Below are positions 31,915 to 53,852 of a DNA stretch of 53,852 nucleotides, one piece after another. The notes under the pieces were generated by a model, which did no database searches, was not told where the DNA came from, and saw nothing but the letters and a program-made list of their open reading frames with translations. The position numbers were made by a program, and so were the translations under genes. Every line of letters starts with the position of its first letter. The first letter of the stretch is position 1. This DNA comes from a bacterium (GTDB lineage Bacteria > Zixibacteria > MSB-5A5 > GN15 > FEB-12), in the NCBI GenBank assembly GCA_030605565.1, contig JAUWIB010000087.1, forward strand, positions 1-53,852, read 5' to 3'.

Positions 31915-32880
31915 TTAACCCTTCTGTGTCCGATGGTACTGCGACAGCAACTCCAGGTTCATCCCCCCTTCGAAATTCAGCCGGTCAACCAATTGGCCTG
32001 GACTGGCAGTATCTATCTCCAGAGGCAGGAACTCATAGTCATCGAATTCTCGCTTTTCCGGATCAAGCCTTTCCAGCCGGGCGGTCAGCTCGGTTGGCGT
32101 GAGGTGCGTCAGTATCGCCCCAAACAGTTGGGGTCGTTCACCGCGGAATATCTCGCGGGTGTAGGCCAGGGGGATGTACGTATACTCGGAAGAGGATAGC
32201 CCCAGTTCCTCGGACGCTTCGGCGGCGATGGAAACTCGCATCACATCCAGCAGATTGTCCCGCTCGACCACGTACTCCACCGATCCCGCCACCGAGGGGC
32301 CGAACGATGCTTCCAACGAGGCCAGGTGGGCTGCTCGATGCACCATCAGCAACTCACGGCTCTCCGCCGACTCAACTATAACCCAGGCCGACACGCCCAG
32401 ACAGATGGCCAGCGGGTTGTCCCTGACCTCATGCGATTTGGTTCTCGACGAGTAGTACTCGCGAAGGTTGCCGCCCCAATCAGCAAACAGAGGATGCCGG
32501 TAATCAAGAGCGAAGCAACTCCCTGCCTGCAAACCGTAGTGACAGGGTTGAACCGTCAAGCTCCTGTTCGGTCCGGCCAGATTCGCTTCCACCAGCTTCA
32601 TGACGGGGGGACCGGCATACAGCCGACCCTCGGCCGTCATGCGCTCCTGGATCTCCACCGCAAACCGGGCAATACGATCGTCGGTGAATTCGAATGGTTC
32701 AGCCTGATATGTGATTGCGATTTCGGCCGGATCCACAGCTTCGGCTCCAAAGAACCGGATTATATCGAAGTACCCGAAGTCACGGTTGACCTGCCGCTTT
32801 GATATCTCAGGCGAACCCCCAAAGCGCTCAAAGTACTCAGCTACCAGTAACCGGAACCGGTTGTAGTCAAGGTACATCAT
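31915..32880 (-). CDS. Nudix-like hydrolase of unknown substrate
   Basis: 321 residues. The middle carries SIAAEASEELGL, close to the Nudix box core REUXEEXGU but with Ala for Arg; the preceding GSVEYV and following PLAYTREIFRGE fit the fold. The metal-binding acidic residues remain, so hydrolysis of a nucleoside-diphosphate-linked substrate is possible, though the lost Arg weakens the call. Adjacent ATGs open the frame (MMYLDYN), overlapping the TGA of an EamA transporter remnant upstream. The two were therefore once translationally coupled, which suggests that the protein worked with a transported metabolite. It converges on hpf. Confidence 0.65.
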   Translation of the reverse strand: MMYLDYNRFRLLVAEYFERFGGSPEISKRQVNRDFGYFDIIRFFGAEAVDPAEIAITYQAEPFEFTDDRIARFAVEIQERMTAEGRLYAGPPVMKLVEANLAGPNRSLTVQPCHYGLQAGSCFALDYRHPLFADWGGNLREYYSSRTKSHEVRDNPLAICLGVSAWVIVESAESRELLMVHRAAHLASLEASFGPSVAGSVEYVVERDNLLDVMRVSIAAEASEELGLSSSEYTYIPLAYTREIFRGERPQLFGAILTHLTPTELTARLERLDPEKREFDDYEFLPLEIDTASPGQLVDRLNFEGGMNLELLSQYHRTQKG

Positions 32881-48730: not shown

Positions 48731-51142
48731 ATGCACTTACTGTCATTACAAATCCAGAACTTTCGGGTTATCAGGAGGGCGGTCCTGCCCCTGCCGGATC
48801 ACGTCATTGGAGTAATCGGTCCCAACGGCGCCGGGAAATCGTCGCTGGTAGAGGCAGTGGCGTGGGCGCTGTACGGCAATCCGGCGGCGCGTAGCGGGAA
48901 GGACGAAATCAAATCGCAGTTTGCCGGGGTGGATGATAACTGCGAAGTGATTCTCCAATTCGAGGTGAAGAACATACCATATCGGGTCGTCCGCCGTTTG
49001 GTGGGTCGGACCGAACGGGCCGAGGTCGAGTTGTACCGGGGCGAGAGGTCGGAGTCGGTTGGAGTCAGTGAGACGCAGGCGTATATCAGCCGGCTGTTGG
49101 GGCTCGACCTTAAGGGTTTCCTGACGTCTTTCCTGGCTCGTCAGCAGGAGTTGAACACCCTGTCGGACTTGCAGCCCTCCCGGAGGCGGGATCACCTGGC
49201 CGGGTTGCTGGGCATTGAGCGACTGGATAAGGGGATCATCCGTCTGAAAGAGGACCTTCGTTTCGAGGCCGGACAGATCGATTTCATGGAGCGACAATTG
49301 GCCGAGCGCACCGGCCTGTCTGAGAGGATCGAGGAGCTTACCACTCGGTTAGGTGAACTCAACGCCCGCGAGGGGTCGGTAACCGATGCTGTCCACCGTG
49401 CCGAGACTATGGTTCGGAAGACAACCGATCTATTTGCTTCAGAGCAGGCCAGAAAATCCGATTGGGTACAGATCACCGCCCGGCTTACGGCGGAAAGTGG
49501 AACCCAGGCTCTTCTTGAGCAGCAAAGCAGCCAACTGAAGAACGAACTCTCAGAGCTTCTGAGCTTGACCTCCGAAAAGGATCAACTGGACGAGTTGATT
49601 AAGTCGTTGGCGCCGATTCGCGCTGAGTTTGAACGGATGAGAGAGACCCGCAGTCGCAGTGAATTGAGACGGCAGTTGCAACAGCAATTGGAGCACAGCC
49701 ATCGGGAGAAACAGCAGGTCGAAACCGCTCTTGGTAACTGTCAGAGCGAACTTGATTCTCTGAGTCACACGCTCGAGGCAATCCCTGATGACGTTGCTCA
49801 GCTCCTTGACCAGGCCCACGGTGAACTCGAACAGGCACGTTCCCGGTACAGTCACTTGAAGGCTGAACGCGACAGCCTGGCCCGGCAGATCGAGAAACTG
49901 AATCAGCAGATTCAGTCGGTGGACAAGTTCGGCCCGGAGTCGGTCTGTGATCGGTGCCACCGGCCGCTGGGTAAGGACTTGCCTGAGATTCGACAGCATC
50001 TGACAGATGAGTTGAATGACCTGGAAAAATCAGCATCGGAACTGGACTTACACCTAAAGCAACAGTCTGATCTGGGCAAACAACTGAAAGGTCGCTGGAC
50101 GGAGCTTGAACAGATGTGCAAAACTCGTTACCAGCTCCGGGTCGACAAGGTGGCGGCCGACAAGGAACTGTCATCTCTTCAAGACAAGGACCGTGCGATC
50201 ACAGCATCAATCGAAGAACTGACCGAAAAGCTCGCAGCCAGTTCGGCGGTGGCTTTTGATCAGTCTGAGTTCGACCGGCTTGAGCAGAGATTGGACGAAC
50301 TGGAATCCGCCCAGGCCCGCCGTCAGCTACTACAGGGAAAACTGTCGCGGTTGCCGCTGGTGCAAGTGGAGATAGAGGCGCTCGATTCGAAAATGAAAAA
50401 GGTTGCTGAAGGAATCGAATCCCTAAGTAGCCGGTTGTCCGAGCTTGCCTACGATGCAAAGGCGTTCGACCAAGCCCAACTCGAGTTGACGTCGGTCCAA
50501 CATCGGTTGGAAGAGGCAAGGAACGAACAATTCTCCTTTAGTAAAGAAGTCGAGATCACTCGCGCCGAGTTGGATGAAAAGCTTCGACAGAAGGAAGACC
50601 TCAGGAAGGCCGAGGACGAACTTGAAGAGCACCGCACCAGCAGATACCACCGTGAGAAATTAGGGGTCCTGTTTGCCGATTTCCGCAAAGACCTGATCGC
50701 GCGGATTCGTCCGCGTCTGGCTGAGCTGTCCAGCCGACTGTTCGCTGACATGACCGGCGGCAAATACAGCCTGGTCGAACTTGACAGCAAGTACAATCTG
50801 CGGGTGATGGACGGCGGGGAGTTTTTCGGTGTCGAACGTTTCTCCGGCGGCGAGAAGGATCTTGCCAACCTCTGCCTGCGGCTGGCTATTTCACAGGCCC
50901 TGACCGAGTCGGCCGGCCTGGACCGTTCGTTTGTTATCTTAGACGAGGTTTTCGGATCACAGGATGACGAGCGCAAGGACCTGATCATCAGCGCCCTGGG
51001 TGGTCTCAAGAACCAGTTTCCGCAGATTCTGTTGATCACGCATGTTGACGACATTAGAGACCGCGTCGAGGACCTGATCGAGGTTCGACCGACCGGCGCC
51101 GGATACTCTGAAGTGAAGTTCAATGGCAACGCTACCGCCTGA
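48731..51142 (+). CDS. SbcC/Rad50-like ATPase with zinc hook
   Basis: 803 residues from ATG 48731 (MHLLSLQIQNFRVIRRAVLP), chosen for AGAGAG just upstream. The N-terminal ATPase half holds GVIGPNGAGKSSLVEAVAWA. Two long coiled coils flank the zinc hook VCDRCHRPLG (CxxC near 406-409). The C-terminal half has RFSGGEKDLANLCLRLAISQ (signature) and FVILDEVFGSQDDERK (Walker B). In pairs with the SbcD nuclease such proteins cut DNA hairpins and ends. No SbcD gene adjoins it. Instead the next gene encodes a different nuclease and overlaps it by 20 bases. It is shorter than E. coli SbcC (over 1000 residues). It could instead be a stand-alone SMC-like ATPase. Confidence 0.88.
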   Translation: MHLLSLQIQNFRVIRRAVLPLPDHVIGVIGPNGAGKSSLVEAVAWALYGNPAARSGKDEIKSQFAGVDDNCEVILQFEVKNIPYRVVRRLVGRTERAEVELYRGERSESVGVSETQAYISRLLGLDLKGFLTSFLARQQELNTLSDLQPSRRRDHLAGLLGIERLDKGIIRLKEDLRFEAGQIDFMERQLAERTGLSERIEELTTRLGELNAREGSVTDAVHRAETMVRKTTDLFASEQARKSDWVQITARLTAESGTQALLEQQSSQLKNELSELLSLTSEKDQLDELIKSLAPIRAEFERMRETRSRSELRRQLQQQLEHSHREKQQVETALGNCQSELDSLSHTLEAIPDDVAQLLDQAHGELEQARSRYSHLKAERDSLARQIEKLNQQIQSVDKFGPESVCDRCHRPLGKDLPEIRQHLTDELNDLEKSASELDLHLKQQSDLGKQLKGRWTELEQMCKTRYQLRVDKVAADKELSSLQDKDRAITASIEELTEKLAASSAVAFDQSEFDRLEQRLDELESAQARRQLLQGKLSRLPLVQVEIEALDSKMKKVAEGIESLSSRLSELAYDAKAFDQAQLELTSVQHRLEEARNEQFSFSKEVEITRAELDEKLRQKEDLRKAEDELEEHRTSRYHREKLGVLFADFRKDLIARIRPRLAELSSRLFADMTGGKYSLVELDSKYNLRVMDGGEFFGVERFSGGEKDLANLCLRLAISQALTESAGLDRSFVILDEVFGSQDDERKDLIISALGGLKNQFPQILLITHVDDIRDRVEDLIEVRPTGAGYSEVKFNGNATA

Positions 51143-51794
51143 GAAAAAAACACGATACAGGACGCTCGTCCGGGTTGTCCTTGTTGCTTTATTGGTCGTG
51201 GCGATAGTATGTTTCCGGATGGTGACCGATATCGGGCAGGATGTCAAACCGAGTGACCGCTGGATGATCGTCGAAATCGTCGACGGCGACACCGTTATTC
51301 TCTCCAGTGGTGAAAGGCTCAGACTGGCCAACATCGACGCACCGGAACAAGAACAACCATACTACGAAGAAGCCAAACAGTTTCTCACGGAGTTAGCTTT
51401 GGGCAAGACCGCCCGGCTTGAGTTTCCTGCCAGACGACGCGACAAGTATGGGCGGCTATTGGCATACATGTTCATCGACTCCGTAATGGCTGGTGAGGCG
51501 CTCTTGGAACGTGGTCTCGGCTATCTACTATTATTCAAGCAAAGCGACTATGACCGTCCCCAGATACAGCGTTTGCTGAAGGCGCAACGAAGAGCGATGG
51601 CTGCCGGCGTCGGGCTTTTCTCTATGGAGCGAACGCCGGAAGAGTGCTACCTCGCCCGTTACGGACGGTTCCGCTTCCACCGTCCGGGCTGCACTCAGAT
51701 CGGTAAGTTCCGACCCGACCGCTACCGTCTCTTTGAGACCCGCGACGAGGCTCTCTACGAAGGCCTCACTCCCTGCCGCCGCTGCCGACCGTGA
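51123..51794 (+). CDS. Membrane-anchored SNase-family nuclease with C-terminal metal-binding motif
   Basis: 223 residues. One N-terminal membrane helix (VRVVLVALLVVAIVCF) is followed by a staphylococcal-nuclease domain: VEIVDGDTVIL, RLRLANIDAPEQEQPYYEEA and ARRRDKYGRLLAYMF carry the expected Asp, Arg, Glu and Arg of the active site. The last 50 residues (FHRPGC...GLTPCRRCRP) resemble the Ada-type CxxxC/CxxC zinc site often attached to such nucleases. It cuts DNA or RNA with calcium, presumably on the outer side of the membrane. It starts inside the sbcC-like gene (20-base overlap), so the two are co-translated. Confidence 0.88.
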   Translation: MATLPPEKKTRYRTLVRVVLVALLVVAIVCFRMVTDIGQDVKPSDRWMIVEIVDGDTVILSSGERLRLANIDAPEQEQPYYEEAKQFLTELALGKTARLEFPARRRDKYGRLLAYMFIDSVMAGEALLERGLGYLLLFKQSDYDRPQIQRLLKAQRRAMAAGVGLFSMERTPEECYLARYGRFRFHRPGCTQIGKFRPDRYRLFETRDEALYEGLTPCRRCRP

Positions 51795-51800
51795 AGAGGT

Positions 51801-51874
51801 ACACGTGGGCGGCAGACCTCCCGGTCTGCCCCGTTGATCACGTGGCGCACGAGGGCGTACACCACGCACAGAAT
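51801..51874. repeat. Dispersed intergenic repeat, family 1 (copy D)
   Basis: acGTGGGCGGCAGACC and GGTCTGCC form a perfect 8-bp stem, followed by the core GCGCACGAGGGCGTACACCA and cgcacagaata. It lies directly after the nuclease gene and may act as a terminator. Confidence 0.75.
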
Positions 51875-51952
51875 AACCGAGCATACCGCCGGAGATCTGC
51901 CGACCTCGTGAGTTCTGTGTAGCCCAATGAGACTCACACGCCGCTAATTCGA

Positions 51953-51981
51953 TTGACTTCATCGACATCACACTGTATATT
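51953..51981 (+). promoter_or_regulatory. Sigma70-type promoter of the dockerin protein gene
   Basis: TTGACT (51953-51958), 17-base spacer, TATATT (51976-51981). It resembles the carboxypeptidase promoter in its TTGACT box. Confidence 0.65.
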
Positions 51982-52099
51982 GTGGGTAGCACACTCGGAG
52001 GATTTTGTCTATGTATCACCGGAGGTGAGTTTAGTTTATCGAATTCCTTCGCTAACGTTTTGAATAACGCAGAACGTAAACTTACGCAAAGGAGCAACT

Positions 52100-53377
52100 A
52101 TGTACTACCGCCGTACATTTACTTGCAACAAAGACGTCATTCCTGCTGGAGCCGTTAGCTCGACCACACCCTGGTGTCGTAGCCTGGGGTTGGCTGTCGC
52201 CGTAATTGCACTACTGATGTTGACTGGGCCGGGACTGGCTGCCCAACCGGTATCAATTGAGATCGAACACACTCACAATACAGATCTTGGATCCCTAGCT
52301 ACGGTCGATATCACCCTGGGTAGCACTCCGTACTGGTTCGATATGGCCGGGTTCGATTTGCTTCTGGCCTATGATACTATCGCTTTGGAGATTGTTTCAG
52401 TATCACAGGGAGGGCTCCTGGATAGCTGCGGTTGGGAGTACTTCGAATACCGGGTCGGGTCGGCGGCGGACTGCGGTGGCCAACCCTGCCTGGGAGGCCT
52501 CATTCGCCTGGTAGGGGTAGCCGACCTAGCCGGGACGCCTGGGTCCCCATCCTGCTATGCCGATACCACCGGGACGCTGGCCCGGATAGAATTCCAGGTC
52601 TCTTCCGATTCCGCCTATGAGTGCACGTTCAGGGGGATACAATTCATGTGGTATGACTGCGGCGACAACAGTCTCACCTCGGTATCCGGCGACTCGCTCT
52701 TCATTTCGCAGGGAGTCTACAATTACGATGGTATGATTCACCCCGGGGATACGACTTTCCCGACGCCGTGGGGCGCCCCAGACACCTGTCTTACGGACAG
52801 CAGCACGATGTTCAGGCGGGTAGAATACCACCACGGGGGTGTCGATATCAAGTGCGCCCCGTTACCACTCGTAGTTGGCGATGTCAACCAGAATAACATA
52901 GGATTCGAAGTCGCCGATTGGGTCTTGTTTACGAATTACTTCGTGCGCGGGCTGGACGTATTCAATGTCAATATAGAAGATCAGATTGAAGTTTCTGACG
53001 TCAATGCCGATGGTGTGCCGCTCACTCTGCAGGACCTGGTCTATATGTACTATTACATCGTCGGATATCCCGGGGCGATACCGCACCATCCCCCCGATCC
53101 CGGCGATACAGTCTTTTTCAGCCAGGACACGGTCGCCAAAACAGTCAGTCTTAGCTACCCTGATTCACTAACATCAGTATACATGGTTTTTGAGGGTGAT
53201 TTGGTTCCCTGGGGTGAGGATTGGGAGGGCCGTCCCTTTGACGGTCAGTACACGCGCATTCTCCTCGGAAGCGGCCCTTGGCTCTGGAATGACTCAACGA
53301 TCTTTGAGCAAGATTCATTGCTTTTCTATACCGGCGAGGGCAGTCTCGTGGCCGCATACGCGGCCTTTGATGGATAA
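52100..53377 (+). CDS. Secreted cohesin-like/dockerin protein, cut short by an ochre codon
   Basis: 425 residues to TAA 53375-53377. A signal segment (about 29-48, LGLAVAVIALLMLTGPGLAA) precedes a beta-sandwich (VSIEIEHTHNTDLGSLATVD...AGFDLLLAYDTIALEIVSVS) that resembles cohesin-type or surface adhesion folds. An internal dockerin-like segment follows: VVGDVNQNNIGFEVADWVLF and VSDVNADGVPLTLQDLVYMY. AAAGGAG precedes ATG 52100. The same frame continues past the stop for another 86 residues with a second dockerin pair (see next entry), so this is probably a damaged or recoded longer protein of about 511 residues. Confidence 0.82.
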   Translation: MYYRRTFTCNKDVIPAGAVSSTTPWCRSLGLAVAVIALLMLTGPGLAAQPVSIEIEHTHNTDLGSLATVDITLGSTPYWFDMAGFDLLLAYDTIALEIVSVSQGGLLDSCGWEYFEYRVGSAADCGGQPCLGGLIRLVGVADLAGTPGSPSCYADTTGTLARIEFQVSSDSAYECTFRGIQFMWYDCGDNSLTSVSGDSLFISQGVYNYDGMIHPGDTTFPTPWGAPDTCLTDSSTMFRRVEYHHGGVDIKCAPLPLVVGDVNQNNIGFEVADWVLFTNYFVRGLDVFNVNIEDQIEVSDVNADGVPLTLQDLVYMYYYIVGYPGAIPHHPPDPGDTVFFSQDTVAKTVSLSYPDSLTSVYMVFEGDLVPWGEDWEGRPFDGQYTRILLGSGPWLWNDSTIFEQDSLLFYTGEGSLVAAYAAFDG

Positions 53378-53635
53378 ACACCCAATACCACCGCTATTGT
53401 AGGTTTTTCCGGAGATTGCTGCCTGCATAAGGGCAATGTAGACAACGATCCATCCGGTGAGTTGAACATTGCCGACTTGGTCTATCTGGTAGATTATATG
53501 TTCGAAGACGGTCCGGAACCGCCTTGTATGAGGGAGGCCGATCTGATCGAGGATTGGTCGATTGATATCGCCGACTTGGTGTTTCTGGTGGACTACATGT
53601 TCAACGGTGGCCCGGCGGCGCCGCCGTGTCCGTAG
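53378..53635 (+). pseudogene. Dockerin-like C-terminus separated from its gene by an in-frame TAA
   Basis: Directly in frame after TAA 53375-53377 the sequence reads TPNTTAIVGFSGDCCLHKGN, then LNIADLVYLVDYMFEDGPEP and WSIDIADLVFLVDYMFNGGP, ending in TAG 53633-53635. The paired DLVYLVDYMF motifs match the end of the carboxypeptidase at 21107-24184. It has no ribosome site or start of its own. A single C-to-T change (CAA to TAA) would explain the break. Confidence 0.82.
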
Positions 53636-53681
53636 ACACAGCTACTAACTGGTAACACATATATCGCTCCGGTGGCCTAGG

Positions 53682-53852
53682 GCTTGGAGGCTGTCTCAAA
53701 AGTCGCTTTTTCTATCGCGTAGCGGCGGGCCTTGTGTCCGCCGGAATCGAGGTGGGAGACAAGCCCCCACCCTACGCGGTGTTAGAATCTGTGCACATAA
53801 ACAGTGGTGAGGACGATGCATTCACAACCGAGTTATGAGACAGCCTCCAAGC
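53682..53852. mobile_element. MITE-like element with perfect 17-bp terminal inverted repeats
   Basis: GCTTGGAGGCTGTCTCA at 53682-53698 and its exact complement TGAGACAGCCTCCAAGC at 53836-53852, the last base of the window. The 137 bases between have no gene but contain GTGGGAGAC / GCCCCCACC-type local pairing. The AGGCTGTCTCA terminus is of the kind seen at ends of IS1182- and IS4-type elements. Length about 171 bp, so it could move only with help from another transposase. Confidence 0.8.

Follow-up and report, generated by a model that had tools for sequence, protein, structure and literature searches.

A probable recent nonsense mutation ahead of an intact dockerin-like tail in a draft genome of the Zixibacteria

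The window considered here (the whole stretch of DNA that was analysed, 53,852 bases, which is the entire contig 78 of a draft assembly in 152 contigs with 3.39 Mb and 96% completeness) carries a gene in which an in-frame TAA is followed by an intact and conserved tail; in relatives the same place is occupied by a sense codon. A nonsense mutation that is private to this genome and apparently recent is probably what produced this stop. A change of one base in the linker immediately ahead of the last dockerin would have converted a sense codon, TAC in the nearest relative, to TAA, and translation stopping there would leave a product that keeps its leader, its cohesin-like domain and its inner dockerin-like segment. 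The truncated product is predicted to lose the last dockerin, through which the protein is expected to attach to a partner. The features discussed are collected in Table 1.

Table 1. Features of the interrupted gene and its surroundings, and short dockerin-like stretches elsewhere in the same genome.
Feature	Coordinates	Strand	Remarks
Interrupted gene	52100..53377	+	425 codons ending in the premature TAA; from the ORF list
Parts of the interrupted gene			N-terminal hydrophobic leader, cohesin-like domain, inner dockerin-like segment, further segment
In-frame TAA	53375..53377	+	TAC (Tyr) in the nearest relative
C-terminal type I dockerin-like tail, conserved	53378..53632	+	85 open codons
TAG, stop of the longer frame	53633..53635	+	relative L002 ends at the same TAG
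MITE-like repeat	53682..53852	.	27-nt inverted ends, 89% complementary; ends the contig, outside the gene
Short dockerin-like stretches	C2:1479-1547, C11:12041-12103, C29:3473-3580, C116:30917-30988, C134:9040-9117		elsewhere in own genome

The sequence and the ORF list bear out the arrangement described in the original prediction, with a TAA at 53375-53377 in the reading frame that starts with the ATG at 52100 and a frame that then stays open until the next in-frame stop, the TAG at 53633-53635. As was also claimed, no frameshift is required between the gene body and the tail, and there is no second stop or frameshift in the tail or elsewhere in the gene. Two details need correction: the intact run between the stops comprises 85 residues, not 86, and the two repeats given as DLVYLVDYMF are both present as near-identical rather than identical copies (DLVYLVDYMF and DLVFLVDYMF). 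GC content by codon position is close in the tail (0.576, 0.400, 0.624) and the body (0.574, 0.452, 0.619). The length of the tail is weak evidence by itself, since 85 open codons have a chance of 0.026 at the base composition of the window, 178 of the 3579 stop-to-stop stretches in its six frames are at least as long, and after another frame (31915-32880, minus strand) there are 113 open codons that lack a Pfam domain. It is through homology at the sequence level that the tail is seen to be non-random, with 87% identity to the tail of a same-genus relative and a dN/dS of 0.29.

The state of the codon in relatives, a check called for in the original prediction, bears on the origin of the stop. 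When the 425-residue protein was searched against 61 genomes (own genome included), the nearest relative among the matches listed was a locus of the same genus (L002, G003:C264), 76% identical over residues 129-425, which has TAC (Tyr) opposite the TAA of the window and a frame that is open for 380 codons, through the tail. A second search covering 54 genomes of the family gave, among the candidates scored and the matches listed, L122 and L123 (59% and 55% identical, respectively), both with ATA at the site. Taking all fetched loci that extend 8 residues to either side of the site and removing duplicates, we obtained 28 distinct stretches, among which that of the window is the only one with a stop and the other 27 of 27 have a sense codon; by eye, the alignment at the site is clear in 19 of these 27 and loose in the other 8 (L132, L058, L126, L087, L063, L065, L064, L069). 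The residue found there is variable (Tyr, Ile, Leu, Val, Gln, Thr and others), as one expects in a linker. A point against a nonsense mutation is that, within the genome of the window, none of 12 further matches to the body carries a stop. The TAA itself is seen in one genome, with a sense codon and an intact downstream frame in relatives, which is the pattern of an ordinary nonsense-truncated bacterial gene, and we found no departure from that pattern in this gene. These observations support the suggestion that a nonsense mutation or a sequencing error lies behind the TAA. The specific change from CAA to TAA that had been proposed is not borne out by the nearest relatives, with their TAC and ATA; CAA is present in two more distant ones, L124 and L045.

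The product of the gene would be exported and would combine a cohesin-like domain with a type I dockerin-like domain at its C-terminus. A hydrophobic leader at the start of the protein was judged by eye from the sequence. The cohesin-like assignment refers to a Pfam Cohesin match over residues 64-174 of the body that stays below the cut-off (E 0.009, 16.6 bits against 24.1), and the relatives L122 and L123 exceed that cut-off. An inner dockerin-like segment at approximately 52870-53070 was likewise recognized by eye. Upstream in the window, positions 51123-51794 encode a protein of the staphylococcal nuclease type (Pfam SNase, E 5.7e-15), in which a C-terminal Ada-like metal-binding match stays below the cut-off.

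The tail is best described as dockerin-like rather than as a Pfam member, because it does not reach the gathering score of PF00404: a Pfam search of the window tail found no family, the relative L002 scores 14.4 bits against a cut-off of 22.9, and 2 of 14 aligned tails give a match at E ≤ 0.1. A dockerin fold with two repeated loop/helix units is nevertheless what the structural model suggests. The AlphaFold2 model of the tail (pLDDT 84.8) has helices at residues 31-42 and 64-76, and although no Foldseek match for this model reached E 0.001, its best row was 4fl4_A (E 0.0038, probability 1.00, TM 0.69 by query length and 0.85 by target length), and the titles of the first 30 rows point to dockerins or to cohesin-dockerin and scaffoldin complexes. 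A profile of the 14 tails matched 8 PDB sequences at E ≤ 1, the best again being 4fl4_A (E 0.00061, the sole match below 0.001); by molecule name these are cellulases or other plant-wall enzymes together with one dockerin repeat domain, and the matched parts are presumably dockerins. In comparison to type I dockerins (PF00404; 4fl4_A, 2mte, 5nrk_B), the tail shares the two-fold repeat and the two helices, but scores below the Pfam threshold and has conserved cysteines (C14, C15, C50 and C84). Dockerin-tailed proteins are numerous in this bacterium, and the present one is among them: a dockerin-like query has 101 matching stretches in its own genome (counted as stretches, some of them overlapping, and not as proteins), and since this query was designed after the tail had been read, its E-value of 7.6e-24 is partly circular.

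The tail also appears to have been under constraint. The dN/dS between the window and L002 is 0.248 in the body (294 codons) and 0.289 in the tail (85 codons), the latter being loosely bounded (0.125 to 0.675 by bootstrap). Compared with 13 related tails, that of the window keeps each of the 9 columns that never vary among them and 25 of the 27 that at least 10 of them conserve, the same number as in L002. Because these conserved columns are kept as in the uninterrupted relative, any loss of the domain would be recent, or not real. Judged by eye, three of the differences in the tail look changed on the side of the window and none or one on that of the relative, too few to judge. We also observed that nucleotide identity to L002, taken per 60-column block over 52484-53683, lies at 63-73% over 53024-53383 and then at 90-93% in the tail to 53623. 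Synonymous divergence falls from 0.59 in the body to 0.22 in the tail, and dockerin tails exchanged by recombination or gene conversion could account for this jump along the gene.

The undecayed tail, which fits a consensus error equally well, counts against a nonsense mutation, and so does the fact that the stop is seen in a single genome. The TAA could be an error of consensus or assembly, or a base from a minority strain, with the gene intact in the organism, an explanation that we consider unlikely while giving it serious weight. An undamaged and constrained tail is what such an error would leave, the genome is a draft in many contigs, and a contig end, itself inside a multi-copy repeat, is 475 bases away from the site. 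The stretch 53633-53852 has at least 45 matches in its own genome, itself included (40 of 84 candidates were scored), some of which are only about 58 bases long, and since the copies are numerous and several are at contig ends, this repeat probably breaks the assembly. The site itself is outside the repeat, however, the gene is clear of any further lesion, and the window retains 26 open frames of at least 200 codons, not counting any that a longer frame covers by half. Single-base errors in an otherwise clean consensus are uncommon, which we also count against this explanation.

Programmed or tolerated read-through of the TAA, which would yield two forms of the protein with and without the last dockerin, had been put forward in the original prediction and is not supported by our results; we regard it as very improbable. 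It would give the same intact, constrained and in-frame tail, and the open conserved frame past the stop is indeed a feature shared with known recoding (selenocysteine, pyrrolysine, read-through). The one match of the tail in NCBIfam is also to an Omp28-related selenoprotein (E 0.0011, 18.4 bits against a cut-off of 200; E 0.075 for L002), but this match is weak and confined to the dockerin-like end of the model, and is taken as reflecting that shared part. Unlike the recoded cases, the gene has TAA rather than TGA or TAG. We reject read-through because the stop is not conserved (the same-genus relative is among those with sense codons, at a variable linker residue); no structure signal was seen, nor a suppressor tRNA among those found, in a tRNA list that is incomplete. 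The RNA fold around and after the stop is ordinary, with a z of −0.84 and 38 of 200 shuffles folding as well, and an Rfam search of 51800-53852 returned only a miRNA-family match (E 0.46) far below the gathering score. By ARAGORN, all 36 tRNA genes found have sense anticodons, in a list that is incomplete in that tRNAs for Tyr, Ile and Asp are absent from it. TAA moreover ends 5 of the 26 long frames of the window (interrupted gene included), and on the same count a different genetic code across the genome is unlikely. The 113 open codons past the TAA of the frame at 31915-32880 have no Pfam match, but the frame itself has none either, and the comparison says little on this point.

No more credence is due to a variant in which the stop is real and serves as a population-variable switch at the anchor linker, the stop releasing the protein and occasional read-through restoring the docked form. 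Our literature search found no paper combining dockerin with stop codon readthrough, or dockerin and cohesin with Zixibacteria. Least probable of all is that ribosomes re-initiate beyond the stop and translate the tail on its own: the tail has 8 in-frame TTG, GTG and ATG codons, but its first 28 codons have none of these, the first start codon lies 84 bases past the stop and inside the dockerin, and the product would be without the leader and the start of the domain.

A second isolated stop, which we count towards a nonsense mutation, is found in a protein of the same kind. In the same-genus genome G002, a long cohesin-type protein has one in-frame TAG (L013:1516-1518, G002:C168), and in a comparison with 17 other rows that have the same short motif, CAG or CAA stands there in the five that share its C-x-H-V context. 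At least two genomes thus have an isolated stop in a protein of this type, with different stop codons and at different places, and either could be an assembly error. Within the genome of the window, 5 others of the 101 dockerin-like matches lie in open frames of less than 80 codons (Table 1), and these short stretches are probably remnants.

A nonsense mutation at this position, as the reading we prefer, has little significance beyond the gene itself, which would be one truncated or mis-sequenced case among a large number of dockerin proteins. It does carry the caution that, in a draft genome, an intact domain behind a stop should not be read as recoding. If the stop is real, one secreted protein of this bacterium is predicted to have recently lost its docking domain.
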